From contig KQ965732.1 in assembly GCA_001574975.1 (NCBI GenBank), positions 744,001 through 808,000 of the forward strand: a stretch of 64,000 bases of DNA, read 5' to 3'. Position numbers and translations under genes: made by a program. This document shows positions 10,850 through 43,450 of the stretch, in pieces (positions within the stretch are counted from its first letter, which is position 1; the number at the start of each line of letters is the position of its first letter). Under the pieces are notes generated by a model. The model did no database searches and was not told where the DNA came from. It saw nothing but the letters and a program-made list of their open reading frames with translations. The stretch is from Gonapodya prolifera JEL478. Taxonomy: Eukaryota > Monoblepharomycota > Monoblepharidomycetes > Monoblepharidales > Gonapodyaceae.

Positions 10850-11547
10850 GAAATTCTTGACGCTGCTTTGGTGCGCAATTTTTATTTAGATGACACAAAG
10901 GCACATTTGCCAAATCAGCTAGGGATATATTGTGTAACATCTCCCACTTGAGTGTTCTTGACTCTTGACTGATCCAAGTATATCATGATTGCAGCTAATA
11001 GCTCTGGGGGCCAAGTCATAACAAGTCCCTGGCCAGAAATGATCTTTCTTCTGAACAATTGAGTTCAGAAGCTAGGCAATGTGTGTGCCACATGAAGATT
11101 GCAATTTGCAAAAGGGCATGCACTTGCCAATAGATGCCCACCAGGGAGCTTGCTGTTCATTCCATTGAGGTTTGAGCAAAGCAGCTTTTGTGCAGTGTAC
11201 ATGACTAGTAGCTCAAAGGCTCCACAGTGCTCCTGTGCCTAAGTACCCAGGATCATGTATTTGTGTCTGAAGTATGTACATTGTGGTTCCAGTGCCTTGA
11301 TTCAGTTTGCTGGAACTATTGCAGGGGGGTGGGTACAAGTAAGTTACTCAGGATATTGAGCATTTCCCCTAGTTCTTAAAGGATGATGAATAACTTTAGC
11401 TGCAAAACTTCACCAAATGCGTGTTGTCCACAAAAGCATTGTACCCTGGTAATTTGATGGCAATTGTGATTAGAGTACTCATATATTTGAACTTTCTTAC
11501 TCTTTCACAGCAAAGCTGTAGTTATTATTATGTACTTTTCCACCAAT

Positions 11548-11766
11548 AGTGGGTTTCAAAATTGGCCAGAATGGCCCCTCTGGAATGGCACTTTGTACCT
11601 TTTGAGGGCATTCCAGAGCATTCCAGCAACTTTTTGGCACCTGAAACCCTCTGGAACATTCCAGAAATACATTTCTCTTTGCAAATTGGGTACTCTCATC
11701 TCTGTACAATTTATAGAGACGTAGTTGGTGAATTCCAGAGCATTCCATTCAATTTTGAAACCCACT
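11548..11766. mobile_element. MITE of 219 bases with 17-base perfect terminal inverted repeats
   Basis: The left end AGTGGGTTTCAAAATTG (11548-11564) is matched exactly, inverted, by the right end at 11750-11766. It is flanked by AAT on both sides (11545-11547 and 11767-11769), a 3-base target duplication. Inside, GGAATG/CATTCC units recur many times (CATTCCAGAGCATTCCAG, CTGGAACATTCCAG), so the element is palindromic on a smaller scale too. It has no coding capacity. The 3-base AAT duplication is close to the TWA sites of PIF/Harbinger (Tourist-like) elements. Confidence 0.85.
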
Positions 11767-11896
11767 AATTTTGTTTCCCCCTTCCTCCTTACTTTTCCCC
11801 CATATCTTTCATTTCTACAACTGGTTTTCTTAGCAGTATGTACTCAGCAGTGGTTCCTCAATTCATTTGCAAATTCCCAGTTGTCATGGTGAGGGT

Positions 11897-12130
11897 TGTG
11901 CTACACAACCTAGGTGAGCTGCACAAGCCTGTAAACTGCAGGAACGTGTATATATGATCAGATGTACATAGCAAGACGTAATGTGCATAGAACTCACCTG
12001 CAGGAACGTGATGCCAAACTTAGGGCACGTCCTGCAGGTNNNNNNNNNNNNNNNNNNAGCACTTAACACCTCACACTATATATACCATGTCAATGGATGT
12101 CACCTGAGGCTATGGTGACACAGGTGTGCA
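11897..12130 (+). repeat. Hairpin-bearing repeat, copy A (interrupted by an assembly gap)
   Basis: Shares with copy B at 17717 the order GTGCTACMCAACCTAGG, CTGCAGGAMCACG-like motif, CTCACCTGCAGGAMC again, an inverted CCTGCAGG...CCTGCAGG box, a TATATA run, then CATGTMAATGG and a hairpin TGTCACC...GGTGACA (7-base stem). Part of the middle is hidden by 18 N. No coding potential and no tRNA-like A/B boxes were found. Confidence 0.7.
12040..12057. other. Assembly gap (18 N)
   Basis: A run of 18 N directly after CCTGCAGGT, the point where the repeat's inverted CCTGCAGG arms close. Comparison with copy B suggests that more than 18 bases are missing. Confidence 0.99.
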
Positions 12131-13414
12131 CATCTAAACCCACGGCCACAGTAGTGGCACAGCAGCTAATACCCAACACTCATACTACTCCATATATTCC
12201 ATGTTAGTGGATGTCAGTGTGACAGCGGAGCTCAACAACTACCTGTCCTGGGATCTTGTGGGAACAGAATCTGAGAGTGAGAACAATTTAAATAGTTGCT
12301 GAGCGCGCTTTGAGTGCACCCAGCTCCAATCATGCTGGTATGGTCTTGCAAAGTGGTCAAAGAACAGGGCTGCCTGCTGCAGGACCTGCACCAAAACCAC
12401 TTTCACCCAATGCCAGGAGAAGCCCTGTTGCTCTTCCTCTCAATCATGGATACCAGAAACATTTAAATAGTAAAAAAAATCAGGAGGGTCATATGGGATG
12501 AAATGGATGAGTTGTGGTCAGGTGCAGAAATTCTGCACTTTGAGCACACCACATCACCTGAATTTGCATGGGGATGGCTTAAAGCAGCCAAAGCCTTGTG
12601 ACAGTAAAAGTTGATGAGGAAAGCCTCTTTTTTTGCTCCTATCTATTGTCAGTTGTCCAGAATATATTCCTAAAGTTTAGGGTGCAGAGTGTTCAGAAAT
12701 GTGCAATCAGGGCCCAAGAGCTTAATTTTGACTTTGGAGCTAAGTGGGTTTGCACATTTTACCTCCAATTTTGAAACCCCGTCTTTCCAGAGAGCCAGCA
12801 TGTTCAAGCAGAGTAAGTCTTAATTTTGAACACACCATGGCTGTAGTTCTCCATACCATTATTGAAGTTTTTTGCAGTCTCTGGGTTAAGCAGGGTCTTC
12901 TCATTGCCATCCAAGGACCAAGAGTCCACTGTTTAATGTTCTTACAACTAAATGAACCAACTATCCCTTGAGGATGCCAGGAATGCTGTGATCATGTTCA
13001 GTTCTTTTAAGTTTAATGAAACTAAGTAATGCTAACACAAATGGACTAATTATCTTCATGTATCTTCTCCTTGCATTTTCAATTAAGGCTTAACTTAAAT
13101 GTACCTAAACATACATCTAACTGAATTTTAATAAAAACCCACAAGTGGACATAATATGATGGTGTGGTCAGAGGAATTTCCACTTGTAATGCTTTTTGAT
13201 GATGAAGGATTGATTGCAATGAGCTTCTTGCTCTCTAGCTCATCACAATCACTGTTGGGTGCAGTTGTGGTGGAAATGATCCTTGTTTGTTCAGTCACTT
13301 TGGGACATATCCACAGATGATGCTTTGTGGAACACTTTGCATGGAACAGAGTGAGAAGTTTGTGCAACTGCAGCATATTCTACTGAGGACATATGTAACT
13401 AGTCTAGGCTATGC

Positions 13415-13483
13415 ACCCCCATAATCAATTTGGCCTTGCAATTTCATAAGTCCCAAAGAGGAGTCTAATTAGTGGATTTAGAC
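13415..13483 (+). repeat. Outer inverted repeat, left arm
   Basis: Begins ACCCCCATAATC and contains the core TCATAAGTCCCAAAGAGGAG, then TCTAATTAGTGGATT. The reverse complement of 17328-17397 matches it over about 67 bases with small gaps. It lies 70 bases left of the Harbinger element's left end. Confidence 0.75.
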
Positions 13484-13552
13484 TGAGTGGTAAATCCATT
13501 AGAGGATAAGATATTCATTGACATGATTATGAAAGGAAATAATTCTGTTATT

Positions 13553-13573
13553 AGGGACCTTGCACAATAATTT
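13553..13573 (+). repeat. Harbinger left terminal inverted repeat
   Basis: AGGGACCTTGCACAATAATTT, preceded by target duplication ATT. It pairs with 16501-16521. Confidence 0.88.
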
Positions 13574-13793
13574 TTACTCACACATTTTCATTTGGCTACT
13601 TTATGCCAAGGATATTTGGAAGTGAAAATCACACTAAAACCCCCTTGAATGAAAATTACTTCTTCACTGCCCCCTTGCTACTAGACCAACGTCCATCAAT
13701 GGACGACATCACAGACATTATGTGAGTTCCTGGCTGCAGCTGTGGGCCTCAAAATCCCCTAATCATCCCATGGTGGTGACTTAAATTTACCGC

Positions 13794-15087
13794 TTGTTGT
13801 TGTGTTTCCCCTTCATCCCCAGGTCCACCCCCATCCAATACCCTGCCAATTCCAACAACAAGACATCTGATTTGGGTGCTGCGCCTCTTGGATGCGCGCC
13901 CCTGCCCCAAATCAACTCCCAACGCAGCATGGGGCACAGGCAACCCAAGAAGGCAAAGTGCAGCCCCAGACGGTCTTGCCTTACAACAGAAGAGAAGCAA
14001 CAAAGGAAGGACTATAGGAATCAGCTGAATGGTGGACTTGTGGCTCCAATCAGACTGCAGAAACCTCAAGTAAGTGGCCACAAACTTTACTGCCTTTCCC
14101 CCCCTCAATTTGCCACCCCCGCAGCCATCTCACCCCCTAATGTAGCTTGACCAACAATACATGGCAATTGGCAATGAGCCAGGCGCTGGTGGACCAAGGA
14201 AGGCACTGTTCCGATGGCAAATGGCAAAGGTCCTCCACCTTCTCCAGCTTGCCATGAAAATGGAGCCTTTCAATGCGTCCTGGGACAAACACTGGTGGAG
14301 AACTATGTGGAGCTTGTGGATGCACTAGTGAGCCTCAAGCCCCTCGCCCATGCATGTGCCAATGCCACCAATGTCACCTGAAAACTGGAACAAGTACTGG
14401 ATGCGTATTGGAAGAAGAACATTAGTGCTCTCAAGAAATCTGGAGACAATGAGCAGTACACTCAATTGGACAAGTTGGCCAAGAAATACTGGGCGGTGGT
14501 GAGTTTTCAAATTTCATGCACAAATCAAATTGATTCTAACCCCCCAACGGTGCGCTGCCCACAATTGCACATGCAACCCCCTGCCAAGTATACAGGATAC
14601 ACAGTGGAGCAAGATGCAAGGTGGAATGAAGTCACAAGGAAGCAAAACATGGAAATGCAGATACATACAGGTGAGTCCTGTTTATCAAATGCACAGGCAA
14701 TTCCAGCCTCCGCAATTGTTTAAGCACTAATTGTATCTCCTTTACACCAGCAATTTGTGAAAAATGATCTGCAGTGCCTATCTGACAAGATAGGTGTTTG
14801 GACAAGGACAGGGAATGGTGACAGTGAGGAGTCGTCAGAGCTGGAGAGAATGCCACTGGCCAAAAAGTGGCAGACAGTTGCAAAGGATGCATGCAACACG
14901 CTCAGGGACATCAAGGACCTCATGGACAAGGAAAACAAGAGGCTGGATCCCATCATCAACACTCTTGCCTGAATGATAGACAAACAGACTCAGGACCAGG
15001 CACTTCAACAAGAGGAGTTGGAGTTGCAGAGGGTGCAGCTGGAAGAACAGAGGAAGGAGAAGGAACAAAGGGGGGAGACTAACTGAG
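13794..15087 (+). pseudogene. Harbinger accessory (DNA-binding-type) protein, decayed
   Basis: Pieces in order: a basic N-terminal part (MGHRQPKKAKCSPRRSC from ATG 13929, then LTTEEKQQRKDYRNQLNGG), a middle part (VLDAYWKKNISALKKSG, LDKLAKKYWAV), and a long helical C-terminus (KKWQTVAKDACNTLRDIKDL, then ALQQEELELQRVQLEEQRK) ending at 15087. Introns are likely after QKPQ (14070) and after KKYWAV (14498). A TGA at 14970-14972 interrupts the helical part. Read as decayed CGA it fits the CpG loss of the island. Harbinger elements pair their transposase with a Myb/trihelix-type protein; the domain itself is not certain here. Confidence 0.6.
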
Positions 15088-15154
15088 TGATGTGGGATTT
15101 GCTCATCCAGCCCCTCCAACCAGCAAAGAGCAGTATTAATAATGTTTTTTTAAC

Positions 15155-16192
15155 CTAGAACTTTATAAAATTTATTGGTTTACACGTAAATAATGTTCCA
15201 ATAGGGGGGGGGGGGGGGGGCGGCACCAAGTGCAACAAAGTTTCACTCCCATACAGACAAGAATGAGCATTTGGTAGTAAAATACTACAACAAAAATATA
15301 AAGCAATTGGAGACAACAAAACCTTATGCATTTGCCACCAGTCCAGAGCAGCAAATTCCGTTTTTGTCTTCCCCCATGCCCACTCCACACAAATCTGATG
15401 CTGGCTCATCTCCACATGGCAAGCGTGCTGTTCTGGTGTTGGAAAAGCCGACTTGAAGGGGTACTGGAGGTGGGGGAATTTGCCTTAGTACCCAGGATCA
15501 CCATAGACAAAGAGAATTTTGCTGTTGGGACCAAAAGCTGAAAAGGGCATAGAGCACCGATTTGAATGCAAACAAGAACAATTGCAGGACTCACCATGTT
15601 CAACAAGAAGATCTTTGATCTTGCTCTGTTTCCATAAAGTAATGTCATGAAATGGGCTGTTGAATGGCCCCCTAAGAAGTATCAGGATCCCGCCCAGGGC
15701 CAAAATTCTGTGAAACTTTAGTGCCAGTACTCAACAATGTAAGTTGAACAATTGCCGCTGATACTGTAATGGTCTGCATATCTGCCAGACTGTGCCATCC
15801 ACGAATCCGAAGCAATCCACATATGGTGCACCAGCATCCTTAACAGCATCTGCATATTCCTGGAGAACCTCTGATGTGAGCCAATCCTTGTCCCATTACA
15901 AAACATCACTAAATGGTGCGCAGATATGGGCAATGCCCCACTGGTAAATCCGTGAAATCTCACTGCCTTCACGGCCAAACTCCTTGCTGAGGTCATCCAA
16001 GCGGGTGGGGAAGGAGAGGTGGCGGAGCACAGTACAGAGTACCTCAATCCCAGGTACTATCAGTCTGTTGTCCATGCTGACAATTGCGGGTATGTGGAGG
16101 GCTTGTTGGAGACGGGGCATGTCAGTTTTGTCGAACCTGACCACAGACACCACCCAGGTCATCCAATGCCTGATCCATGGAGAGAATGGCAC
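15155..16192 (-). pseudogene. PIF/Harbinger DDE transposase, decayed
   Basis: The N-terminal part reads VLCTVLRHLSFPTRLDDLSK and FGREGSEISRIYQWGI, the helix-turn-helix-like start of Harbinger nucleases. Catalytic motif 1 is CFGFVDGTVWQICRP, followed by LRGPFNSPFHDITLW. After a probable intron (GTGAGTCC...TTTTCAG) comes motif 2, ILFVYGDPGY, and then motif 3, ICVEWAWGKTKTEF, ending HSCLYGSETLLHL. The Asp/Asp/Glu residues are all present. Three in-frame stops break it: TAA after FSDVL, TGA in LHC-VLALKFH, and TAA after GDPGY. All are single C-to-T type changes from Gln or Arg codons. The 17-G tract at 15204 encodes a Pro run near the C-terminus. Confidence 0.85.
15204..15220. repeat. Homopolymer of 17 G
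   Basis: An uninterrupted G17 on the plus strand, inside the 3' end of the transposase gene on the minus strand. The length is prone to sequencing and replication slippage. Confidence 0.97.
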
Positions 16193-16500
16193 AGCAACTC
16201 ACGTAAACCTCAGCCTACAGTCTGCAGGTGTCATTGCATCCAGATCCATGCGACTGGAGGGGAAAGTAGGGCATTCCTGTGGGATGATTGAAGCGGCAAA
16301 CAGTGAGCACCACCTGGAGCAAAATCTGGTGCCGCCACAGTTCCTGCCTCCTTGTGTACTCATGACGGCCATTCCTGCAAGCTCTAAGGAGGATTGGTCC
16401 ATCAGGGAAAGAATTGTGGATTGATATTTTTAAATTGTGCGCAAGGTCAATAATCAAGATTTCACTCAAGGCGCTTAAACTATTTTTGCGACTGAAAAAG

Positions 16501-16521
16501 AAATTGTTGCGCAAGGTCCCT
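16501..16521 (-). repeat. Harbinger right terminal inverted repeat
   Basis: The reverse complement reads AGGGACCTTGCGCAACAATT, two differences from the left end. It is followed by the ATT duplication at 16522-16524. Confidence 0.88.
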
Positions 16522-17327
16522 ATTGCTAGCAATACTTCTTAATGGCAGAGAAATTGGAAATGAGGATGACAGTAATCATCCTGCTCAGGAAAATCTTATG
16601 AGCCTGTGGTAACATTAGACGTCTTTCTCCACTTAAAACTTGATCTCAAAAACCTGGAAAATCTTTTTGAAAGCACTAAAAAGATCTTGAAATTCTGAAG
16701 CACCTGAAAGCCCATGATAATTCCAGCAAATAGAAGAGAATTGATTTTCACTCAATTTTATACAAACAAAACTTGTCATGTAATAGTGTCAAGCATGAGA
16801 CTTGAAGCATTATAGTCTGTGAGCTGTTTTAATCAGAAATATAGTGTTTGTTATATAAAAACTTTTGCCTCAGTTTTGCAATCAAAGGCTTAGTGCATTT
16901 TATATTTGAGTGGTACAGAGTTGGGATATACAATTAAACAGCTGGAGTAAAAAAAGCCTGCCTGAATGGAAATTTAAGAAGAGAGCTTATAGGGAGAAGT
17001 TCCAATTTGAAGAAGAGGAAGGCTTAAATGCTTAGGATAGACTCTACATTGACTTAGATAAGACAAAACATTTGAGGAGCACTGTGATGTGTATGTTACA
17101 GCTGCTTAGAAAAAGGTTGTCCAATGCCACAGTAAGAGGCAAAAAGGTCAAAATTTACCCAGCACCATTCCAGGTCAAGCTCCCCCTGGACTGTCTGCAA
17201 TAAGTCAATAGAAGGTTGAAGATGCAAGATTTGGGGGCATTCCAGGCTAGGAAGAGGTTTGAATTATATAAAAAGAATCCTGCTAGCCCAGATTTTTAAT
17301 AACTGTAGTAGAATTGACACTTGTACA

Positions 17328-17397
17328 CAATCCACTATAGTCAGATTCCTCTTTGGGACTAATGACCTTGTGGCAAGGAACTAAGGGATTATTGGGG
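17328..17397 (-). repeat. Outer inverted repeat, right arm
   Basis: The reverse complement begins ACCCCAATAATC, contains TCATTAGTCCCAAAGAGGAA and TAGTGGATT, and pairs with 13415-13483. No matching target duplication was found at the outer edges. Confidence 0.75.
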
Positions 17398-17716
17398 TAA
17401 TAAAGCCTTTACTAGTCTATATGTGTCCACAGCAGAATACACCACAATTGCAACCACTTCTCACTCTGCCCCACTCTAACCCTTCCAGCATAGCATTACC
17501 ACCCTAGGACACATCCCAGGCAACTGAGCTTGCAAGTGTCAGTTCCACCACACAACCTTTTCTGGGACAGCTGTAAATGAAATGCAACTAGCAAGCTCAT
17601 CTTAATCCAAATATTGGTTTAGATTTTAAATTATTGTTTGTAGATGCACATACAAACTAGCTGAGCTACAAAGCTTCAACTTTCCAGCAGAAGGAAGATG
17701 TGGGCATAATGAACAG

Positions 17717-18024
17717 TGGTGCTACCCAACCTAGGGGTGCTCCATGAGACCTGTGTGCTGCAGGACCACGATCATATATGAGTGACACAAAGCATACATA
17801 GGAGGTGTGACATAGTCTCACCTGCAGGACCACGACGCCAAACGTGGGCTGTGTCCTGCAGGGGAGAATATATAAACTAGGGAACTGTTCCATGCTGTGC
17901 CGCCTAAGGTGCCTCGCCTTAACAGCACTGTGCCACACACTCAGCCCCTATCTATGCTGTGCCACACTCCACCCCACACAGCCATGTAAATGGCTGTCAC
18001 CCAGCAGGCTGGGTGACAAGTGGG
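17717..18024 (+). repeat. Hairpin-bearing repeat, copy B
   Basis: Same orientation and motif order as copy A: GTGCTACCCAACCTAGG, CTGCAGGACCACGATC, CTCACCTGCAGGACCACGAC, GTGTCCTGCAGG, ATATATAA, then CATGTAAATGG and a hairpin TGTCACCCAGC-AG-GCTGGGTGACA with a perfect 11-base stem. The stem is longer than in copy A and differs in sequence while staying paired. Confidence 0.75.
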
Positions 18025-18831
18025 GTGGAGTGGAACTTGGCACAAGTACAGTGATGACTAGACTAGATCACGTTACCAGCAATAAATGCCAATATGATTT
18101 GCAAGGTTTGGTACTACAGAAAAGCACAAACTACTTCAGTAATGCTTTCTTCATCTCAGATGTATTAGCTTCAATGTCCACATTTAAACTTTGAATTTGC
18201 ACACCAATTGGATCAACTCTAAAACCAAATGAAAGTTTGTATGCTCTCCCATCCTCCATAAAAGTTTCTTTAATCTGTGCCATGATTTACTCCTGGCCTG
18301 GCCTGCCAGATTCCCCATTCCAAGCAGAAATGCCCTCCCATCAGTGCTCTTGCCTTGCCATTCAGCTGTTTGACTTGTGCCAAAGTTTTTAACAATTGGA
18401 AGTGCAACACACAATTTAGTTGCCATAATCACACAGAAAGTACCCAGGAAGTTGACATTTATTTCACACATTCCCCTTGCTCATTTGCTGAATATACATC
18501 AGCAAACTCCTTAATTAATAAGTTTGGAAAAATTACTTTAAATTAAATTGGACACTATGTATGATCAAACATGGGCATCTATCCCCGCATGTGTTTCTGT
18601 GGCTTGAGGGCATCTGAAAACCACAACTACTCCTACATACACGGTTTGATTGTAATTCTGTCAGTTGGAGAATGAACCTTTGCATGGATAATGATGAATC
18701 AAAAAATTGGTAGCAAAATTTAATGGCATTATCATGAAAATTAATGTGAGATAAATTTGACTAACTCCACCATTGAGTAAAATGCAAAATCAATACTTAA
18801 CACTAAATTAATGCGTAAAAGTCAGTGCTTT

Positions 18832-21800
18832 CTAAAAGTTTAGTGAGCAAATTAAGGCTGTCCCTCTCTTTATCCACATGCTTTCAGGTTGGTCAGAGGG
18901 AACTTCAACTGTGAGCACGTAATTTGTGGAATGCCCTGTGGTAGACAGTGTTCCTGCACGTGTTAATCTAACAGATCAAAAATTAATCAATGTAAATGTT
19001 TGTGAAGGGAATCACTTATTGTACCTACGTTTTGTAGCATGGAGAGTTATAGAGTCCACTCTCTGGCTTCTTTCTGTTTGCCTTTGGAAGTAGCCAGATA
19101 ATGGGCATTTCTGTGTATAACTCCTTAGGGCGAGATTCTCCCAGAAGATGCCGTGTATAATCCCATCGAGCTCCCTCAAGGAACAGTCCAGAAATGTAAA
19201 CACCATCATCTGGCTTGGATTTGACGTCTTCCAATCGTTTGTCATCAACCACTTGAAACTCAAAGGACAGAGTATCAATTGAAAGTGTGTACTTTCTTGC
19301 AAAGTTCTGCAGTGCACCAGTAAGAAATGCTTGAGGGAAGAATAATCCAGAGATCCAAAATACAGATGGCTGAACAAAACCAGTGTAAGACATGTTCAAC
19401 AGACAAAACTTGCAGCAAGCTTACAATTCCATTTTCAATCCACTTTGTAAGGAACTCAACTCGCTGGCATAAGTCAGTCACCCATGAACTCAAAGGTTTG
19501 AGTGATGGATATGCTCTGGCCGCCCATATTGCTGGGACTTGATTGATGAACATGCTATTGCACATTGTTTCCAACTGTTCAGACATCACAACAAGACCCT
19601 TCAAAGCCTTTATTGCATCCTGCAGTGTTTGATGTATAATAGCGAGGAGGCTGCAAATGAATTTTATGTGAATAAACACTTATTCAGATCTTTTGAATTG
19701 AGTCAAATGCTCACCGGTTGAAGCGTATCACCTCTTGAAGAAGGACTGTTGACATGGACTCTTTATAGTCTATGGGATGGTTCTTCAAAACATGCTCAAC
19801 GCTAAAAGGTTTTGCAACTTTTCCAGCAATAAGCTGTGCCGTCTCCATCAACTGCTCTTCACGACTTTTCCCTCCACCCTTTGACTGACGAGGCATCAGA
19901 GTAAGCAAAGTGTCAAGGTTATTATAGGTCTCTTGTTGTTTCCTATTGTATCAAAAGCTGCATTTGATCTGATGCAAATTTGTATGGGTATAATAAGTCT
20001 TACCTTGTGATACTGGCATTAGCATGAAGTCCAAACACATCTGGGGGCTCATCAAGAGGCAAACTCTTGATGTAGTTTCTGTAAGCAGAGTAATTGTCTG
20101 CTGGAATGGATTGGTACGTCTCAACAGGAGAGAACATGTGCCCATCCTCCAATATATGGGGATTATAATAATCCTCAACAATATTTGCAATCAATCTTCT
20201 GTCCCAATCATCTGTGACACGTCCACCATAATTGATCTGTGCAACGGTGTATCGTAAAACCTTGTATGGAACCTCTGCATACTCTTCCAAAAACATTTTT
20301 AATTGGCGAAGGCACATCCTCAAATCACCATCTGTGAAGTCTAATAAAAAAAAATATCAGCTGTGGGAAGATAAGGTTCTGAGTGACTTAAAACATACCG
20401 TATGATATGTTCCAACCTAAGGATCCAAATTTGCGCCGTTCTTGAACTACAGAGTGGAAGAAACTCAGAGAAAAGACAAACTTTTTCCATTCTACTTCTT
20501 TTGCACAGCCATTGAGGTACTCGTCATTGAAGGATGTGTATGTTCTCAGAAGGTTAGCTTTAATTCCATATGGTGGCTCAATTGTTGTCTTCACTCCATT
20601 TTGCAATATTGTGACAGGAAACTTAGGAGTAGGCATACTCGTCAGCCAAAGCCGAAAATCTCGATGAACTTTATCTGGTGTGATACCATCAACAATTTTG
20701 TCGAGAGTGGGCATCCAACTTGGGGCAAGATGCAGATTCTGCAAGAGTACCCATGTTCCGCGTTCCACTCCTTCTCGTATCAATGCCTCTGCCTTTGGTC
20801 CTTGGCCTTGTCCCAAAGAAATTGAGTGCAGCTTTTTTGAGAATCGCATTTCATCCGCAAATTTCCATAATGATGACGCTGGGTCAGCCCCTGCTGAGAG
20901 GACAAAGATTAGGGGCGTGGATGGAGTTGAATCTTTATAAAGCATTGACACATCAGAGGCCTGTGGCTCAATGAAACGCTCTCCGAGTTGTGCCGAAATG
21001 AATTCTTGAATTGCAGCAATGACGCTGTCTGCTCGGATACATCTCAGAATAAGTATTCTCTGGAATTGATCGACGTCGCTATTCCACTTTCCAGGTAGGC
21101 GTTCACGTTGAGGGGCGGCACTATCAAAAATTTGTTTGAAACGGTCGACATGAAGTGCCATATCACTATCAAAGCCTTTGAAAGCTGGTAAAGTTGACAG
21201 ACTTCTGATTTCCAGCCAGCTCCTGATTGAAAGCCAATCTAGCGCAGGATTTGGTACATCAATGGTTTCTCCGGTACTTGTACCCGTAAGAAGAAACTTC
21301 CATTCGTCTTGGTCGATCGCGTTTTTATCCATGAGAATTCGTACACTAAGAAGAAACGAAAAGAGCAACTTGTGCTTTTCAAATAAACTCCGGCATACGT
21401 TCAAGAAGAGTGAATACGTGAAGAATTCATTGATGTTCACGATTCGTTGATTTATGTTGTCTGACTTTTCGGAATGACTTATTGCACCGCTGAATAAGTT
21501 CAGAAACCAACTTAAACTGTACTGATACATAGGATCAATTGTTGATAGTTCCGTGATACAAAAGAATAGAATCCTTGTCCTGATGGCAACTGGAGAGTAC
21601 TTCATGCGTGTGGCGTCTATGTCTTCTTCTGTTTTCTCGGCTGCCGCAACTTTAACAGTTATTTCATGTGAGGTTTCTTTTGATGCAGCTAGGGTTTCTA
21701 TAAGGCGTTCATCGTCAACAGGGCTGCCTTGTACGGACGAGAGCAGGTATAAAATCTTGTCCTCGATATCCTTGAGCTCTTTCTTCATTTGGGCATTACT

Positions 21801-24800
21801 GAGAACTAATGCATTCTTTGCTTCTTCAAGATCAGGTCGCTCGTTTGCAACGACTAGACCGAGTAGTTGGTCTTCCAGGCCACTCGGCGCTAGGGTAAAG
21901 TTGACAAGTGTAATTGTTGCGGAAACTTCGGGAGAATAATGCGGGTTTGGAAGCTTTGTTGTAATGTAGAACCGAAAATCATCGTGGTAAGGTAAGATAG
22001 AGTCTCCAACTTTGATGACCACGTTGCCGCCTTGCTTGAAAGTTTGGCGCAGCAACACCGGCTCCAGGGCAGGATCAAGTTTCTCCTGTATGTTTTCCAA
22101 CAGAACAGGCTTGCCAAACCGTATTGCATTCTCTAGAGTTCGCAAAAAGTCCTTGTCAGTCAGTTTGATAATATCCAACCCATTGTCCTTCTCCAGATTT
22201 CGTATCCATTTGTTTGCTTGGCCCTGCGGGTCAATGAGTAGAGGCCAGCGCCGGGTGCTGGATACAATAATTCCATTGTCTCTCGATAGAGTGTCCTTTG
22301 GGAGCCCATTAAGCTCCCTACGAATATGGGTGAGAGGTTACTTGATTTTGAACGTGGCACAAACGCTGTCTTAGCTTACCATTGTCGAAGTTTAACAGGA
22401 TCACCCAAAACGTCCCATAAAGTTAGTAATTCTGAATGGGGTATTGAATCTGATACAAGGCACTCTTTCCATTCCGCCACCAAAGAACTGCGGTACTCCG
22501 AGGTAAAAGGCCCAAGATATGCGATTGCTCCACTTGCAATAACTACATCTCCTACGATGCTCACAATCCGCTTGTCCAGCGTTTTCACTGTTTCTGCCCA
22601 TCTTTGTTTTTCATCTCCAAGTCCAGTGATAAGCTTCCCGGCGCGAGAAAGTTTGACATTGCACTCATCGACTTTGCGTGCAAGTTCCTCCTTCTTGGCA
22701 GTTGCTTCCATGTATCGCTTTTCCATTTCTTTGATATTTTGTTCGGACTCCCGCATCTTTTTGCGCAATTCGTTTAGTGTTTCGAGTGTCTCATTCAACG
22801 AGTCTTGAGCTTCTTTGAGCTTTGCACGCTTTGGTCCAACAGATCTGGAGACCCAGTAGTACTTCTCCATTGCTCTTACCCATTGACACATTGACGTTGC
22901 GGCCTTTGATACACGAGCAATCTGAGCCGGTTGAAATTCTGGGCTGTCAATATACGGCTTTATCTTCTGGACAGTGGCCTCTGGAATGTTGTCTTTGTCA
23001 TAAGAAAACAATGATTCCAAAAACTTTTGGGGATCTCCTAGCAATCCCCTCCCTGGTTCCCAATAGTCGTCAACCTTTTTGCCTGGTTTGTCCCCGTCAA
23101 TCCTTTTAGGTTTGATCCCCTTCATGATACACACTGCTTCCATCACAAGCTTCACACCTTCAGGAGGCCGCTGCATACTTCGCACTTCCACTATATCATT
23201 CTTAGACAAGCTGTTTAGACTCTCCAGAGCAGCATCAAGGGCTGGCAATGCTTCATCCAGATCCTTTTTTGCATCATCAGCAATAGCTTTTGTTTCTTCT
23301 GCCTTCTTAGAAGCCTGTATTTCTTCTTTTGCAACGTGCTCACGGATTTCTTCCGCCTTCACTTTATCAACCGCAATCTTTTTCATCGTGAAGTCGACTT
23401 CCTGTGAAGTCTGAAGTAGCATAGGCTGCATTGCCTCGAGCTCTTCCTGGAGAATTTCCACTTCCTTTGTTGAGCTAAGAAGTTTTTCAAGCCCACCTGC
23501 AGTTCGTTTCCGTTGTGCTTCAAGTTCTCCCCTCTTTCTGTCCAAGAGATTACGATAAAGTCCAAGCAGCTCAAGATAGCTCTTCGGCGTCACGTAATTG
23601 TTTCGGTTTAGCTCAGCTTTGTATTGTGAGCACCTTTGACGCACTGATTCGTGCATTTTGACGCAGAGACCAATGATGCCATCGATTACGGTTTCAGAAC
23701 CGAGATCAGTCATTTCTGGAAGTGAAGAACAAAGATATTAGCAAACTGACAGCAATCACTAGAGTAGAGGTACGTCACCTGCAACTGAGCTTGCAGCGAC
23801 TGATCTCAAAGCTTCCTCCGGCCAAGTCGAAAACCAATCAATGGTACAGCAGTTTACCAAGGAAGGAAACATTCGAATTCGGTTCCGGAATGCTTCTCCA
23901 ATTGGGCTCATGCAAAGGATCAAGTGAAGGCGCTGTCGCACTCGTGAAACAAATAGAGCGTGCAGATTCTCTTTCGTAGGGGTTATCGCCATCTCAGTCG
24001 CAATCGGCCTCATTGCATTTAAAATTCTATCGATTTCATCGGGCTTGTACAGATTTGGAACATCGCCCGAGTTAAGAATGTTGTTGATGTCCTCAACGCA
24101 GCCCTCTGAGACAATTTGTGTATCCGTGTAAAGAAACACCAATGACTTCCCATCAATACCAGAAGCAAAGAGAATTTTCTTCAGGTCCTCTTTCCATTCG
24201 TTCTGACCGTAGTTCTTTGAGAGTTCAATTTGAAAAAGCTCAAACTCCTCAATATGCGTGGCTAGCCGCGCCAGTGATTGCCGACCACTACCGCCAACTC
24301 CCAGCAGCAATGCATGACCGAATGGTTGTCTCAGAACACGACAGATCCTTGAAACATGTTCAATCGCGTCCAAAAACATAACGAGCTTCATCGGGGATGT
24401 TGACGTTGAGTTGTAGTCCTCCAAGTAATCTTCAATGAGTTTCACTAGCTTTTTCATGTCTTTGACCTCTGTGTAGGACTTTGGGTCAGCTCCTGGGGTT
24501 TGATAGTCGCCAAACATGAGTGGCTCCGAAAACACTACGTTGGACCATGGAAGACGTAAGTTTTCGTTCATCGTACCCTTGAGGAGATCCATGAACCACG
24601 ACCTATCAGAAGCATCAACAAGGCGATCCGAAAAAACACGCAAGCACTCGTGGGCCCAAAGGCGAATGAGGTCTGATTCTTGCGTGACGGTCTTGTTGTC
24701 AGCATTAAGAAGACCTTGAAAGATTTTAGCAAGATCGCGAAGATTAAATGTGTAATGTGACTTAAGCGGTGTGGGTAGTAGCTCTGATCGAATGGTGTCG

Positions 24801-27800
24801 TATATTCTCATGGACCCGTTCACGATAGAGCTCGTCAGTGTTTGTACTTCTGGAGTAAACTTTTGGAGGAAAGAAGCCAAGATTGTGCCAAATATTCGAT
24901 GTAAACTGGGATGCTCCATTTCGACGAAAGAAATGGTGTTGAAATGACGCGTCATCCGGCGAGTAACTGGATTACGACCACCACCAGGAGGTCCCATTGC
25001 GCAGACAAAAACAATATCCACAATTTCCATGAACTTCCCCACAGCCTTCCGGTCGTACCAACCACCATGGTCCAACCATTGCCGAATGAGTTCAATCGGC
25101 GGCTGTGCACTGCAGATATCTAATTGCGGCATGTTTAAATCGTCCACAAACACTATGAATTTTTTGCCCATAGCGGGTCCGAACACCCCCTTGCGCCGTT
25201 TCTCTAGCTTCGAGTCAATCAAATCCTGTGTTTGGTTGGCACTGGTTCTCGCTGAGAACGACATAAAGATCGGAGTGCTGTTTTGGTCCATTCCTTTCAT
25301 GAGTTTATCTTGAATAACAACGGACTTGCCCGTTCCAGTGGGTCCGACACATAACACGTGGCAATTATTCCTGAGTAAAAGCTCCACAAGATAGTTGCAC
25401 CGAATTGTGTCGATTGTTGGCACTATTACAGCGTCAGTACCTGCCTTCTGGGGGACCATAAATTCGGGAACATCATCCATCCAGTTGACCCACGCTTGCC
25501 TCTCTTCGTTAAATTTGTAGTCATACACGGAACCATCAGCAGGAAACGCTATCTGAGGCGCTCGATCCTTGAACATTCCACGCAGCCAAGTATCAAATCT
25601 CGTGCGCCCTTCCGAGTCTGAGGTTGCACCGACGGACCATATCAACGAGAACAGGAAAAAGGGTTCTATGAAGTTCTCAAACGAAGCAGCTTTGTTGGGC
25701 AAGTCCTGCGATGTGCCATCGCCACCTGGGTCCGATTTGAAAACTCCCGCGATCATGGAGTACATTATTTTCATGAGACTCAAAGCCAAGCTTGGGCCCG
25801 TCGTAGTTACGTACTCCTTAATGTTTTTTCGTAGAAAATTTAGGGACAATTGCAAATACTCATCAAAAAGGGAGCTCGCAACCTTTCGAAATACATCCGA
25901 GAAGGTTTTCGGAAGAACACGATCAACTGCTGTCATCCAAGAAGCCAGTAGCGGCTGCAACCCTAGTGCTCCTGGTTCCATGTATATCATCCCGCACCGT
26001 GAAACGGTTGCTGGAGAGGCGAATGCTAGATCCTCCACTTCAAACATCATTGTCTGAGTAGAGTCCATTTTGATGATTTCTCCAGAGCTCAAGCAAAGCT
26101 TCTTGTTATCGTCCAGGACGGTGTTCATACTTTCTATCCAAACTGCATCAACTGGACCGTCAAAGACATACCACTTTTTATCGTTCGTATGCTCGTCCAC
26201 TCCTTCACGTATTAAGTATGCACAAATACCATCGGTCCATTCGTGGGTTTGCGGGTCAAACTCTCCGTAAAGTTGACCCATGGTAATTGACTTCGGATTG
26301 AGCACATTAACCTTCACCCTCTCAAATTTGGTACCGGTTGGCGCAGTCTTCCCCTGCAGAGAAGAGAGAGATTGTGCAAGAACCCTATAGCAAGAAGTCT
26401 TTCCTCCCCCGGTTGGTCCAACTAGCATGAGACCGTGACGAACTACTGTCGTCTCATAGAGCTGGATGCACTTGTTGATAAAATTAGGAATCGCCTGGAG
26501 CCCCATAGTCGCGCAAGTGGCGCTCATTACTTCTAGCAATTCGCCATAATCAAGTCTCGGTTGCGTAATTCCAGGAAAGAGATCGGAGATGATCCCGTTG
26601 AAAAGAATCAGATCGTCCGCCAAAAATTTGGGTTGGTTAACATCACATAGAGCTCGCAGGAGCAAAATATCCTCTTGGGTATTGGGTTGTTGTCGCTTGA
26701 GGTTTCCAGCGGCAGATATTACGGTTTTTACAGCTCTCATTCCAAAGTCATAATGATCTTGGGAAGAGAGTTGTTCCGAAGAGAGCTTGAATGTTGCAAC
26801 CATTTTCCCTGCTAACAATTTGGCATTAGCAAATCCAAAGGAGAACAGGCTGATTTCCGCGATCATTCCGTAATCTGGAATCATCATTGCCTGAAACAAA
26901 CGAGCCAAGATGATCTTGCAGTAATAGATGAGGGTGCCAACTTGTTCGACTCACCACAGGACGAAACAAAGCTTTCAAATTGTCAGGTAGTTCTGTACGA
27001 CCCGCATAACCTGGATTCATGGTGATGAATATGCCATTCGTCGCGTCGAGAGGTAATTCTACACCCTCGAAGATGAACTTGGTCAAGCCAGCTTGAGCTG
27101 CCTTCTGAATCGTGGTTATCTGTTGTGCAACAACAGACAGTACTTCAATGTCGATCCGATTAAACTCGTCTAGTGATGCCCATGCCCCGGCACTCGCGAG
27201 ACCCTTGAAAAACTTTGCCATTGCAAGATAGTCAAGTTGATCCGAGCAGTTAAACACTATACATTGCTTTGCCATCGCCTTTGCGAGATCTTTGACTGTC
27301 TCAGTTTTCCCCGTGCCGGCGGGTCCAGCAGGCGCTCCACCCATCCCCAGCTGAAGCGCTCCACATAAAGTCAAATAACATCTGTCCGTCAACGGTGTAA
27401 CAACAAGTCGTCCAGTGTTCCCTAAGTATTCGTACCCATATTTGAAGACTGCGTTGACAATTTTTACTTTCAGATCATCCTCCTCCCAATAATATCGAAG
27501 CTGACTCATCCATTCAAAGTCGTTTTCGGTCTGCACCCCTGAATCAATGAGCCTTTTACAAACATCTCGTGCGTGCACGTCCATAACGATCAAGTCACCC
27601 AGGACCAATCGCTGGATGAATGGGAGTTCTCCCCTCACAAGATTTACTAAACCTTGCAATTGATTCAAAAGCCTTTCGTAAAGAAGCTTCAAGCCTTCTT
27701 GACCAGTCTTAAGAGACTCGGCAACTTCCAACGTGAAGAATATGTGGCTGACGGCCAACACAACCTGTCCTGGCCACTCGAGAACCCACTGCGTGCGTTG

Positions 27801-30800
27801 CTTTTGTGGGTAAGAGTGAAGACCATCAAGCATCACCTTCTTCATACTTTTTCGCATGGAATCCTCTGTCTTCAGGAGCCATTCTTCCACATTACCCTTC
27901 GGATAGAATGGTTCTGAAATTGCAACCTTCTCTCCCTCACCAGAGTACATTGCTGTGATTTGTTTGTCGGGTTGGAAGTCCAATTTCGCAATATTCTCAA
28001 AACACTTTCGGAGATGAGGTTGCACGGCTGTCGGATCTTTTGTTTGTGACAGGATTTGCAACAATTCGTCATCAGAAAGGAAGAAAAAGCGGGGAAACGC
28101 GATTCGTTTGCTTTCCAAGTATGCTGTTAGACCCTTTGAGACCAGCTCAAGCATCTTGTTGGCATCCTTCAAGACCTCCAGGAGCTTGGCATCTGCACAG
28201 CAATCTATCACACCAGGTTTGGCCTTTGCCTGGGTCATTGTCTTTCTCCAAGCCCGATCAATCGCAGTAAAACGTTTGGCTTCTGCAGGCAGCTGCGACT
28301 GGATATCGTCGGAACTAAATATTGGCTCGAGGTAAAGCCAAGACCGCTGGCACGCCATCCAAGCCTCCAACACTTCTTGTACTATTCGGAGCTTAGTATC
28401 CCAAGTATGTAAGCGTTCAGCGAACGGTTTCTTGAAAGGTGAGAAGCTCATCGATTGCGTCATCACAATGTGATCATCAAGCATACGAATGGCCTAGAAT
28501 GGCGACATTTTATCAACCTGCGCAAAACAAAATACACAATAGATGTTCACCTCGTCGGATGCTTTCATAATAAACGTTCCGGTTTCCTTGTAAGGAAGGA
28601 TTTCTAGGTAAACATTCTTCCAATCATTTTCCATCTTGTCTAGAGCTGACTCGATCGCAAACTCCTTGCCGGCAACATCGCATACTTTCGAAATTTGATC
28701 AACTTTTTCTATCAAATTCATCTTGATTAGATCCGTCAGAGTGAACGCATCTCCAGGGCGCAAATTGATACCAAGGTCTGTGGAAAGACGTTCCCAGTGT
28801 CGGTCCCTCATCCCCGGGTTTCTCAAAGCTTGTATCAAAGGTAGATACGGTTTGAACTGATCCATTTCATCTTTCACTTGGTTCGCCACATTTAAGCAAC
28901 CTGGGACGTCCTTGAAAGCTTTCACAAGCTTGAACATCGTTCTCCAAGCATTTGTCAGATTCTTCTCAACATCCTCCGCATTCAAATCACTGAACGCTCC
29001 GTGCATCCAGACGGACTTCCATTTGATCCAATCCGCAGCTGTCACCCAAAGATTCTTGTAAGGTTCGAAGTCCTTCATCAATTGTCCCATTTCTTCATAC
29101 TTTGTGGATTCGAGATTGAACAAGCGTTCCCTCGCGTTGAAGAGCGAAACCAAAGCCTGGCAATCTTTCAACTCCTGAGTCACTCTCTGCACTTCACTGC
29201 CAATCTCTGCAACTTTAGAGATGTCGGCATGTCTGCTGAAGTCCCCAATAATGCTCTGGAGATGATTGATACGCTCTTTGAACACCTCTTGATCCGTTTG
29301 TAAGCCTTTGAGAAACAGCGCATGATCCACTTCAGTCGCTTCGTGTGTCTGCTTCATCAAATCTTCAATCTTTGACGCCCATCCAAACGCGCTCCATCTA
29401 GCGCGGAAGTCTTCGTTCGAGACATCATAACGAAAACCCTCAAGAATTTCACAATACTGGAGCATTTCGGCGACTCTGTTCTTGAGGTTTGTCTGCAGGT
29501 CTGGAACAGTCCTCATGTATTCCCGCAAATCTGTCAGTTCCTCAATCTTGGTAGGCTTTTCTTTAAGCCGCTGTTGGATTTGCGCGTAGTCTGAAGAAAT
29601 GGCGTTCGCGAGCTTCGCAGTGCGTCTCGCGAGGATCTCGAGTATGATTTTCGAAAGGTCTTTCTTCATCGCTCCACGAACGGCATCACACCCTACGTAG
29701 AAAACTCCAAGAGAGATATGACTGGGGATATCTCTTTCCACTTGCTCCCACTCTTGCGCATGTCGCTTAATGTCAATCTGCATTTCCTCCACTGTGTGAT
29801 CTTCCGCCTCGTACTGTTTCATGTAGAGAAGAGGATCAAGTGTGAGCATTTTCATGTGCTTGTCGTACTGCCTCAAATAAGCTTCGAGGGGCAGCAAGCT
29901 TTCCTTAACAGCTGTCCGGACGGAAGCACGTAGGCGGGACACTGCCGGTTCACTTTCTCGCACAGTTTCGAGCACTGGTTTTGTTGCCCAGAACATGGAG
30001 TCCATGACAAGAGGCTCGAGCTGCGGAAGGCCATCCAGGGTAGTAAGCGCCTTGTCGAACACCGAGAGCGCGGCACGCTCGAACAAGTTCAAGTCCGTGT
30101 TGTACTGAACGCGGCCATTACGGAATACCAGGTCGACTTGGAACACTGGCTTTCGTAGTGTCTGCTCCACTGACCCTGTCAGAGAAAACGCTGCGTTGCG
30201 TTCGACGATTTTCACATCGTTGGTCCCTGCCACCACCACCTTGTGGGTCAACGGGAGGGAGAACATCCGGAGGTAATCGTTCAGTGAGTTGAACAACAAG
30301 AACCGCAGCGTATCTTGCATGAGGAACTTGACCGAGTTCATGAACTTTTTGAACTTGGAGATCTTGTACACCTCCATGTTGGACTCTTGGACGTTGTACC
30401 ACCCCTTTCCGACCTCCTTAAAGCCATTTTTTATTATCGTTTTCAGATTTGGGATCCACCTTGAGGAAGCGGTATGTAGAACGGGTGAGACCGTCAACAA
30501 CAACGATCAAAAATGAATGTTCTTGAATAAACACTAAATACTCACTGCTCACGCGTGGCAGCCTTGACGGCCTGCAGATTCTGCCCCTGGATCTGCTCGA
30601 ACTCGTCCAGCTTGACCATCTTGTTGACCTGCGTCGCGAGAAGACTAGATTGGAGCAAGCGGTCGCACTCGAGGCGGACGCGCGACATGGCCCGGATGAC
30701 TTCGACCTTGCCAAAATAAGTCGCGAAGGAGAAGGAGTGCAGGGTTTCGGAGAAGTCGTACGTCGGGACATCGGGACATCGCGAGGACCTACGCGGGGTT

Positions 30801-32734
30801 TTTGTGTAGTTATGGCTCTCGAGAAAAAGTGGCAACCGACGTTTGAAGTGGTGTACATACTCTGGAACAGGTCGGGGCGGTTCTTCCTCTGGAGCTTCCG
30901 CGAGTCCATATTCATCCCGCTTCTGTGAATTACGAATCTTTTCGATAAACATGTCCCGTGAATCAATTAGCACACAAGATCAACCGATATCGCAACACCA
31001 CTCCACGTAACCAACCTCCCGCTCAAAAACCATCTTGCTCATCGTCCGCGCGTAGTCCGCCTTGACGTCGCCAATCAATTCGACCGTCGCCGGGCCTGCG
31101 GGCCGGCCCGACGCGTACTCTTTGCCCAGGGCGATGCGGCAGATCCTGTCCAGAGAGGACGAGTCCATGGCGGGGACGGTGGATGTGGGCATGCAGTCGA
31201 CGTAGAAGTTGTAGCTCTGGTGAGGTAGAGAGCGCGAGCGGATGGGCGAAGGGACGAGCGGGGGAGGCTGTTGAAGGGACTCACCAGCAGGCGTTCCACT
31301 CTGTCACGGGAAGAGATGGCCGATGCGATTCTCTTTGCGAAAGTGGCGGGATCCTCCGCAAGAAACATGAAACGCGTTCTTTGAAGCACGACGGGAGCAA
31401 AGTGCGGTGTGAGCGTGTTTGCTGCGGCAAGGAACTGTAGCTGTCAGGGATGCTCACCGATGCACCCACGCCTCATCAGCTCCGAGCTCTGCGTCAGTCG
31501 CACCCGCTTCCGGCCCTGCCTGTCTCATGAGCGGATCGTCTTCCAACTTCAGGGGCATCTTGACGCCGTGGGTGTCCCACCCCGATGCATCGGTGAAGCG
31601 GATCCGCCAGACGTCCTTGGTGGGGTTGTACCCCATCACGAGCGCGTTGTGCCAGTCACCGTTGTGGAAGGCTTTCGCAGGGATGGAAGGGGATGCCCAT
31701 TGTGTCCGTCGTGTGGACGAGGTGGGAGAGAACATGTGGGTGGTGAGTTGGGTTTGGTCACTTCCGTCGGTTCCTCCTGCGCCGTTGCTGCGATTCAAGT
31801 TTAGCCACTCGCTGGTTGACCGCGTCTCAAACTCGGTGTTGTCGAAGAGCGACATTGGTAAAAAGGGTGGAGAAGTGGTGTATTGAGGGGTTGAGTCGGG
31901 CTCCCCGAGCATGGTGGATCCATGTTCCGACTGTGGCTCAACCGAGAACTTTTCTTCCGCGCACATCATAGCGCGCGTTACGCCCAGTCCCTCGAGGATT
32001 TCGGAGATGTCCTGCTTTGCGTACAGTCGTTTCCGCCGCTCGATTTCCACCTTGCGGGGTGTCTGACCCGCCCGGTTTTCGTAGGGAAGGAGCACTTTAG
32101 GCTCCAAGCATATCGATCTATCCAGTTTAACTCGTTTCATTGTGTCGCTGGTGACAGACGTTTCACTGCCGCGTTTGGAAGGTGGTGCCCGTTCCTGAGC
32201 CTGCGGCTGTCCCTCCAGAGAGCTCGACTGCTGTAACACGCTGATCTCTGGAGGTGGTGGCTCAAGTTCATTCGATGGTAACGGAGGGAGAGCCCGGGAC
32301 GATATGGATGTCCGTGACGAGTGCGCAGACGACGCAGAGAGCGTGGGGAGGAGCGTCTTTGAGACATCGCGGGGGGAGGGCGAGCGAAGAAGCGGCGAAA
32401 GATTGGATGATGGGGAGACGAGGAAGTCCGAGAAGATGGCAGCTGTCTTTGCGGATGGAGTTCCCTTCGTTCCCTGCGCGGCCAGTTCCTCTGCAATGCG
32501 CGTCCTCTCCGCGGCCGCCAGTCTGCTCCTATGGTGGATGGACACTGGGTCAAGATACGACTCCATCGCGGAGTGCGCTCTCGCTGGTGAATTGGAGCTG
32601 TCCGCCTTGTTGTTTGGTGTGACCACAGCCCCACTACCAAATGAACCACAACCCTTTTCGCCCATTTTTCCCATTGTCGAAAGGGAACCCGACGAGCTCT
32701 TCATGTGCCAATGCATTAAATTCGGTGATGCCAT
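18832..32734 (-). CDS. DNAH1: Axonemal inner-arm dynein heavy chain, DNAH1 type
   Basis: ATP-driven motor of the flagellar inner arm. Fifteen exons (high to low): 32734-31458, 31378-31285, 31216-31016, 30922-30861, 30788-30546, 30459-28551, 28493-26955, 26890-23779, 23715-22380, 22317-20399, 20340-20004, 19942-19715, 19650-19425, 19369-19029 and 18967-18832. They total 12,960 bases, 4,319 residues, close to animal DNAH1. The tail has [26 protein letters not shown] and [11 protein letters not shown]-loops: AAA1 [10 protein letters not shown] near residue 1650, AAA2 [10 protein letters not shown] near 1930, AAA3 [10 protein letters not shown] near 2290, AAA4 GVGGSGRQS near 2640. The coiled stalk lies at 22.4-23.7 kb ([16 protein letters not shown]). 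The C-terminus [20 protein letters not shown] and [10 protein letters not shown] fits DNAH1 rather than DNAH3/7/12. No stops or frame breaks. Exon 4 may start 15 bases earlier (30937). Confidence 0.96.
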
Positions 32735-40648: not shown

Positions 40649-43450
40649 ATGCGATCTCCTCTTTTCGCAGCGGCATGCATAGCCCTTGTCTCGCTGACAG
40701 CCCGGCCCATCATTGCTCAGTCCTTCACGATGGCACATCGGGTCTTGGTCCTCACAGTCAATTCTGGTACACCGCCTGAAGGTATGTTTGACAGAGTCAG
40801 ACTGTCACATCTGTCAAAGCGAACGAAATGATTGACTTTTAACTCTTATGCGAACCATTAGCTGGCATTGTACAAGCTCTCCAGTCATACGAGATCCCGT
40901 ACGATCTTATCACCATCAACCAGACAGGCCTCGTAGGCAACCTTTCACTTATTGACACTTCAGCGAACGCGTTTCCCAAGTACAGGTACGCTGCGGACCA
41001 GCGCTCTCATGCAACCTCAATTGTCGGTTCCTGATGTTTTGTGCCTCCCGCAACGCAGTCTCATTGTCGTCGCCAGCGCCCAGCTCGCATACAACAATAG
41101 CGGTGCATTTACCAGTGCGCTCACACCCGCACAGTGGGCCTACGTACGTTACCGCTTCAGAACGTTCATCAAGCATTTCGTTTCGATTGAGCCCATGTCT
41201 CATCTTTACAGCTCGAAGACTACGAGGCAACGTACCGCGTTCGCCGAGTCTCCATGGACGACTATCCAGGCGCCGCCACAGGAACACAGGTCTACAACAC
41301 AACGGTCGGAAAGACTGTCCTGAGCGTGCAGAACATCACTCTGAACGCAACATACGCCAGTGCCGCCGGGGTCCAACCAACAGCAGATGTAGATACCAAC
41401 GGGTGGGTATTGCGTCTCGGTCTCTTTTACTGGAGTAACCCTGACTCGTTCAACTTTTCGAACTCTTCACCCCACACCAGTCTGTTCCACACTCCCGCCG
41501 TCGTCAGCGCGTCTCTCCCATCCACTATTTCGTCCGTCGCCCCCGTATTCTGGTACAACCCTTGCCCCCCCGAGTTCCCCGTCACGACCGTCGGGGCCGT
41601 GCACGTGACTTACTCCAACTACCGCGAGCACATGGCCTTCTTCCTCGCGTTCGGGTCATGGTCCGCCACGTCGTCGCTGCTGAACCACGTCTGGCTGCAA
41701 TGGGGCACGCGCGGGCTCTACCAAGGGTTCCGCAGGACGTATGCGCTGGGACAAGTCGACGACCTGTTCCTCAAGACGGAGACGGTCTTCAATTCAGCGC
41801 AGACGTATAGGGTCACTCCGGAGGATATGGCCAATCTTGCCGCCTGGCAAGCGAGCCTCAATCGCCGCCTGCCCCGCGGGTCTGCATTCCGGGTCGAGGT
41901 GGCCCTGAACGGGAACGGCATTCTCGAGGCGGCGGGGTCTGCCGACCTGATCAATATCAATACCGAGTCCACGGTTAACAAGACGTACGTGAAGCCTCTG
42001 GGCAGTGGGACGAACAGGTGGCCGTCGAGCTACACGAGCTCCTGGGTGACGAATTCGACTGGGTTGCTCAAGGACGCGCTGTTTGCGTGGTTTGTCCAAA
42101 AGTGAGTGGCGGAGGATGATGGCGTGCTCTGAAGATGGAACACTGGAGACTGAGCGCGATTTGCTTGTTCGTTGATTTTCAGCAAAACTGCCAACATGGC
42201 GCCATTCTCTTGGTTGTCGCACACGTGAGTCTGGTTCTTTTCACATTTCCCTTCAATTTTTCAACCTCGTAACTTGGTACCTCATCGCCCAGCTTCACAC
42301 ACGAAAACCTCGACGACGCCACGCAATACGACGTCACTCAAGAAGTCACGCTGAACCAGAAGATGGCCACGGTCCTCGGTCTCACGGGCCAACCCTACTG
42401 GTCCTCCAACGGCATGGTGACGCCCGAGATTTCGGGCGTGTTCAACGGGGACGCATATACGGTATTGACGGCAAACAACATCACGACCATCGTGGGAGAC
42501 AATTCGAGGTCCCAGTTGGTGCCCAGCGACATTTACGGGCTTTGGAGGTCCACCAGTGCGTCGTCGAATTATGTTGGGTATGCGGTGATTCCGAGACAAC
42601 CTACGTGAGTTGCGGATGGCCGTCTGATCCAAACCTGTGGGACTGATTTTCTGCTCGTACCACACAGGGAGGTGTACTACGACTGCAGTACTGTGGCGGA
42701 AGACATTTACCTCTACAACAACATGTCAGTCGCCAACCTTTCTTTGCGAGCATTGCAATTTTTCACCGTCTTTTACAGGTACTTCAACACTTTCGGATAT
42801 AACTCCACCTGGTCGCAAATTCTGTCACGGGAGCAGACAAGGCTCACCAGCATGCTCCTTAATCTCCGTCACGACCCCCACATGTGCGTTAATCTCACAA
42901 CTTCGCCTTCCAAAATCAATTCTCACCACCCACTCCCTCCACACCACAGGTTCCACCAAGCCAACCTCCGCAACCACGATCTGGCTCGTGTGATAATTAA
43001 CCGCATCAGTGGACGTTGGGGACTGTACGAGCAGTGGTTCGAAACCGTGTTCGCGAGATACAACCAACTCGTCACTTGGCCCGTTGTCAGCTTGAAAATG
43101 GACGACCTTGCACAGTTCTATCGGTACGTGGTGTTTTTGCTCGACTCTACCGCCGTTACCTAATCCCAGAGCTCATCGCCACTAGTGAGAGGGAGGCCCG
43201 CACCACCTGCTCAATCTCGACTTCCTTCACGGTCAGCACGTACCAAGTCACCGGCGTCACCATCAGCACCAGCGGCGCATGCAAAGTTGGCATCACAATT
43301 CCCACCAATGTGACGTCCGTCAACCCTGCCCACTCGTACGAGCAGCTTGGTAGCGACCCGCTCACGGTGTGGGTCCCCATGACGTCGGGCACTCCGGTCA
43401 CGATTCCGGTGAATGCGGTGAAATGGGGTGATAGACCCGTGGCGATGTAA
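40649..43450 (+). CDS. Secreted Agd3-type polysaccharide deacetylase (CBM87-CE18 architecture)
   Basis: Exons 40649-40781, 40862-40985, 41059-41143, 41212-41402, 41481-42101, 42183-42224, 42293-42604, 42668-42724, 42779-42883, 42950-43123 and 43186-43450 sum to 2109 bases, 702 residues. A signal peptide is clear (MRSPLFAAACIALVSL, cleavage near ARPIIAQ). The N-terminal domain begins RVLVLTVNSGTPPEAGIVQA; the catalytic part has WLSHTFTHENLDDAT (metal-ligand His candidates), VVGDNSRSQL and HDPHMFHQANLRN. Many N-x-S/T sites suggest glycosylation. In Aspergillus, Agd3 deacetylates galactosaminogalactan in biofilm; here the substrate is unknown. The 41403-41480 intron has good ends but would also read through in frame, so intron retention is possible. 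Confidence 0.85.

Follow-up and report, generated by a model that had tools for sequence, protein, structure and literature searches.

Does this fungal genome encode a complete axonemal dynein heavy chain of the DNAH1 type, and if so, what does the gene say about the organism that carries it? We addressed this question for a stretch of 64,000 nucleotides (hereafter the window) corresponding to C2:744001–808000, where C2 is a contig of 1,488,045 bases in a 47.56 Mb genome of 207 contigs. In the best explanation we reached, the locus is almost certainly an unbroken gene for an axonemal dynein heavy chain of the DNAH1 type, carried by the nuclear genome of a fungus that is flagellated and produces zoospores. 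Gene structure, domain content, orthology as judged by score, the fungal setting, and the presence of further flagellar genes in the genome come from the analysis itself, whereas expression, arm position, and motility are inferred.

In the spliced model, the gene runs on the minus strand from 32734 to 18832 in 15 exons and encodes a protein of 4,319 residues, with a single stop codon at its end, exactly the structure and ends that the initial annotation had given for an intact gene. This model was rebuilt through a splice search that used no homology for most joins, followed by correction by hand at the junctions. All 14 introns are GT..AG and span 55–93 bases; intron length is not divisible by three in 10 cases, and an in-frame stop appears on read-through in 10 of the 14. 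A first automatic splice model of 4,202 residues, which differed at the acceptors of introns 1 and 4 and did not include the last intron, was rejected: the version of the initial annotation is the better of the two, as its extra residues can be aligned to DNAH1 chains and complete the Dynein_C domain.

At several joins, the choice of splice sites could be evaluated individually. Intron 1 allows 13 frame-keeping donor–acceptor choices. With the one used in the model (31457–31379, acceptor TTCAAAG), 14 residues across the resulting join of exon 1 (31458..32734) and exon 2 (31285..31378) align without a gap to DNAH1 'WVPRIQLLFCAEDP', which supports the acceptor originally proposed; the 12 alternative choices were compared by eye, without alignment. 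For the join of exon 3 (YNFYVDCMP..., 31016..31216) to exon 4 (30861..30922), there are 27 frame-keeping choices, so that the 3′ end of exon 3 (31016 or 31007, among others) and the start of exon 4 are both uncertain. Intron 3 as modeled (31015–30923) uses a weak donor, GTTGGT, while an alternative and also weak donor at 31006 (GTGGAG) would add the residues VGY, for a total of 4,322, near a point where the DNAH1 alignments show a gap of three residues; either donor, among others, may be the one used. Finally, intron 4 (72 bases) is alone among the introns in keeping the frame and containing no stop, and frame alone is thus no proof that it is spliced. Its retention would add 24 residues, for which the DNAH1 alignment leaves no room.

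The predicted protein displays the complete domain order of a dynein heavy chain, i.e., tail, linker, AAA1–6, stalk, and C-terminal domain. In a Pfam scan of seven long frames of the gene, five carried dynein domains, namely DHC_N2 (two pieces), AAA_6 (two pieces), AAA_7, AAA_8 (two pieces), MT, AAA_9, Dynein_heavy, and the start of AAA_lid_11, while the two N-terminal frames had no Pfam match. Along the gene, exon 1 provides the start codon, then ~150–200 residues without clear homology, then a DNAH1-type N-terminal tail, which continues through exon 5 (30546..30788, aligned to DNAH1) and into exon 6 (28551..30459), where Pfam and solved-chain matches place more of the tail and the start of DHC_N2. 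Exon 7 (26955..28493) holds the remainder of DHC_N2 and the first half of AAA1 with the Walker A motif GPAGTGKT; exon 8 (23779..26890) the second half of AAA1, AAA2, AAA3, and most of AAA4; and exon 9 (22380..23715) the end of AAA4 and the microtubule-binding stalk (MT, by Pfam). Pfam matches in exon 10 (20399..22317) correspond to AAA5 (AAA_9), the AAA6 region (Dynein_heavy), and the start of AAA lid 11, the rest of which lies in exon 11 (20004..20340). The C-terminal region then extends over exons 12 (19715..19942), 13 (19425..19650), and 14 (19029..19369) to exon 15 (18832..18967), which encodes the end of the C-terminal domain and the stop codon. Once joined, the last 629 residues match Dynein_heavy, AAA_lid_11 (1–140 of 140), and Dynein_C over its whole profile (1–309 of 309). 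All four P-loop motifs are kept (residues 1652, 1933, 2291, and 2639), as is the AAA1 'DEFNR' motif, and the integrity of motor motifs, stalk, and tail fits an active motor.

To assign the gene to a paralog, pieces of it were searched against all solved chains, with orthology judged from score gaps. The best matches of the tail portion in exon 6 (636 residues) were three DNAH1 chains at 520–528 bits, followed by DHC2 at 420 bits and by chains of unnamed paralogs (9e5c_6e, 377 bits; 9y6s_6t, 372; 9e5c_6b, 262; 9y6s_6o, 248). Among the other named paralogs, DNAH7 reached at most 205 bits, the best value for any other animal paralog, ahead of DNAH12 (141) and DNAH3 (138). In the motor region, exon 8 matched DHC2 at 1339 bits and DNAH1 at 1301–1304, with the next chain, an unnamed paralog, at 1092 and the best DNAH7 at 1041. 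The first 640 residues yielded eight matches at E up to 0.01, led by three DNAH1 chains (161–169 bits) and DHC2 (151 bits), the other four being unnamed 'putative' chains (105, 84, 54, and 32 bits); none of the eight was named as another paralog. These N-terminal alignments begin at residue 209 for DNAH1 and residue 150 for DHC2, and no solved chain matched residues 1–149 at the same threshold. The protein thus possesses a DNAH1-type N-terminal tail, and its nearest named paralogs, for the tail as for the motor, are DNAH1 and DHC2, in agreement with the DNAH1 identity first suggested for it. Since DNAH3, DNAH7, and DNAH12 are among the nearest named paralogs, the gene could instead encode a single-headed inner-arm dynein of that group. 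However, the lead of DNAH1 chains over these paralogs exceeds 300 bits for the tail and 250 bits for the motor region, none of the eight N-terminal matches is to DNAH3, 7, or 12, and neither tail, exon 8, nor N-terminus had one of these three as its best match, which makes this assignment vanishingly improbable.

A contaminating protist or alga, and not a fungus, might be the source of this DNAH1-type gene, axonemal dyneins being common in protists. Base composition could be read in that direction, as GC drops from ~0.55 to 0.40–0.47 across 10–30 kb of the window, the remainder of which ranges from 0.46 to 0.57. Yet 11 pieces of other dynein loci in the genome are equally or more AT-rich (GC 0.38–0.47, against 0.48 for the coding sequence here, calculated on a model version one base off at the last donor). 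Within the gene itself, third-position GC falls from 0.81–0.88 in exons 3 and 5 to 0.38–0.45 in exons 9–15. The fungal character of the surroundings, as the initial annotation had proposed, is supported by Fungal_trans (PF04082), which occurs mainly in fungi. Three of its 72 genome matches are on C2, including one at C2:676666–677115 and one at C2:861935–862447, i.e., ~85 kb to either side of the dynein gene on the same 1,488,045-base contig; one of these flanking matches is strong (E 7e-19) and the other modest (E 2e-7). The 14 control genomes used for Fungal_trans were all prokaryotes and therefore provide no test of a protist origin, which leaves this point on the side of contamination. Chitin_synth_1 was detected in nine stretches on five contigs, including C28, which also holds a dynein. 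Closer to the gene, homocitrate synthase pieces lie ~11 kb away (best NCBIfam TIGR02146, at 292 bits where the whole-protein cut-off is 414, with exon frames only as the query), and farther neighbors include an Agd3-type deacetylase, RPL5, and a Hira/TUP1-like gene. Given Fungal_trans on either side, Chitin_synth_1 including on the dynein-bearing C28, and homocitrate synthase and the other neighbors, protist contamination is unlikely; with DNAH1 chains also being the best match of the tail, we assign it a very slight probability.

Other features of the window were recorded alongside. The interval between homocitrate synthase and the dynein gene (10000–18800) is AT-richer, with a GC of 0.43–0.47, and contains only two frames of at least 150 residues, neither with a Pfam match; an 18-base N gap is found at 12040. 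The exons of the Agd3-type deacetylase, CBM87 domain included, span 41191–43160, Agd3 being involved in mold exopolysaccharide synthesis. A frame at 49371–49988 weakly matches models of aminotransferase class I/II and of bacterial MocR/PdxR-type regulators.

We then considered the DNAH1-type gene together with the rest of the genome, in which AAA_7 and MT profile searches identified 12 dynein-heavy-chain-like loci. Seven of the 12 were typed by their best solved chain, with C129, C45, C4, C20, and C192 left out. Besides the DNAH1-type gene in the window, these assignments comprise an outer-arm dynein of DNAH17/9 type (C84), DNAH10 (C2:1479777), DNAH2 (C9), two DNAH7/12/3 dyneins (C74 and C28), and the IFT dynein DYNC2H1 (C8, at 176 bits only). 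The typed set thus includes outer-arm, I1, and DYNC2H1 types, and C74 and C28 display the opposite pattern to the gene in the window, preferring DNAH7/12/3 over DNAH1. The genome also encodes RSP3 and IFT46.

A further candidate, C10, was rejected as a dynein locus and left out of the count because its AAA_7 matches were weak (E 8e-5 and 6e-4), it had no MT match, and the one frame tested had no blastp match to the other dyneins of the genome. Two of the loci are unusual. The first (C20:6000–12500) is a very divergent dynein-heavy-chain-like gene, with AAA_6, AAA_7, MT, and AAA_9 matches weaker than in most other dynein loci; the four frames scanned gave no AAA_8 match at E up to 1e-5. Its AAA_7 frame shares ~21–23% identity with its five best dynein matches in the genome, while a frame without AAA_7 had no match at E up to 1e-30, which has little bearing on the type of the gene. 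Conceivably, the gene encodes a degenerate dynein of the DNHD1 kind; none of the literature matches listed contained the term DNHD1. The second (C192:6000–13000), on a 20-kb contig, is nearest to the DNAH3/7/12-type dyneins of C74 and C28 (45% and 50% identity over parts); with its AAA_7 match in three pieces and a stop within the MT match, it either has many introns or is a broken copy.

DNAH1/DHC2 is the heavy chain of a single-headed inner arm. From what is known of the family, the N-terminal tail of the protein would anchor such an arm to one of two adjacent outer doublets, the linker stroke would be driven by ATP hydrolysis at AAA1, the stalk would walk on or pull the neighboring doublet, and the resulting sliding of doublets would bend the flagellum of the zoospore. 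Taken together with the outer-arm, I1, and DYNC2H1-type dyneins, RSP3, and IFT46, the DNAH1-type gene makes it probable that the organism builds a motile flagellum bearing both types of arm, for which the whole flagellar gene set offers better support than DNAH1 alone. The original proposal of motile, probably inner-arm-bearing zoospores is a reasonable inference, strengthened by these additional genes. The presence of a gene is no proof of motility, and a motile flagellum might have been lost from a lineage in which the DNAH1 gene is still intact, either kept for another role or only lately made useless; sanchytrid fungi, for instance, are described in one study as having a non-motile pseudocilium (PMC10459994). 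A reading frame open across 4,319 residues and the presence of the outer-arm, I1, RSP3, IFT46, and DYNC2H1-type genes argue against such a loss here, to which we give very little credence.

A DNAH1-type dynein in a flagellated fungus is the expected, ordinary state: passages of a 2026 survey (PMC13358043) count both outer and inner dynein arms among the parts of the minimal fungal flagellum and report their retention by flagellated fungi. On the strength of these passages, the surprise at a fungal DNAH1 implied by the initial annotation was unwarranted. It is doubtful in the extreme that the fungus comes from a lineage regarded as non-swimming and that its intact dyneins reveal a hidden flagellated stage, and nothing points there. 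The value of the locus is that of a useful annotation, a full-length fungal DNAH1 with a well-resolved gene model and homology support for most of the N-terminus. It is consistent with the known retention of the ancestral axoneme by zoosporic fungi and leaves that picture unchanged.

Among known systems, the inner-arm dyneins of flagellated fungi in general are a close comparison, differing in the paralogs that are named: passages of the same survey describe DNAH3 and DNAH9 as ubiquitous in fungi (PMC13358043). The solved DNAH1 chains (8j07_g6, 9fqr_X1, and 9d2f_U), the best match of the fungal protein in its tail and N-terminus, align with it from residue 209 through exon 6 and again in exon 8, these being the portions compared. 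The fungal protein is 54 residues longer than DNAH1 8j07_g6 (4,319 versus 4,265), and its first 208 residues do not align to DNAH1. DHC2 (8glv_Lc), Chlamydomonas inner arm dynein d, is the best match of the motor exon and shares the N-terminal 'TPRKV.I.RR.R' stretch with the fungal protein, but the DHC2 chain is shorter (4,165 residues) and its tail match weaker than that of DNAH1.
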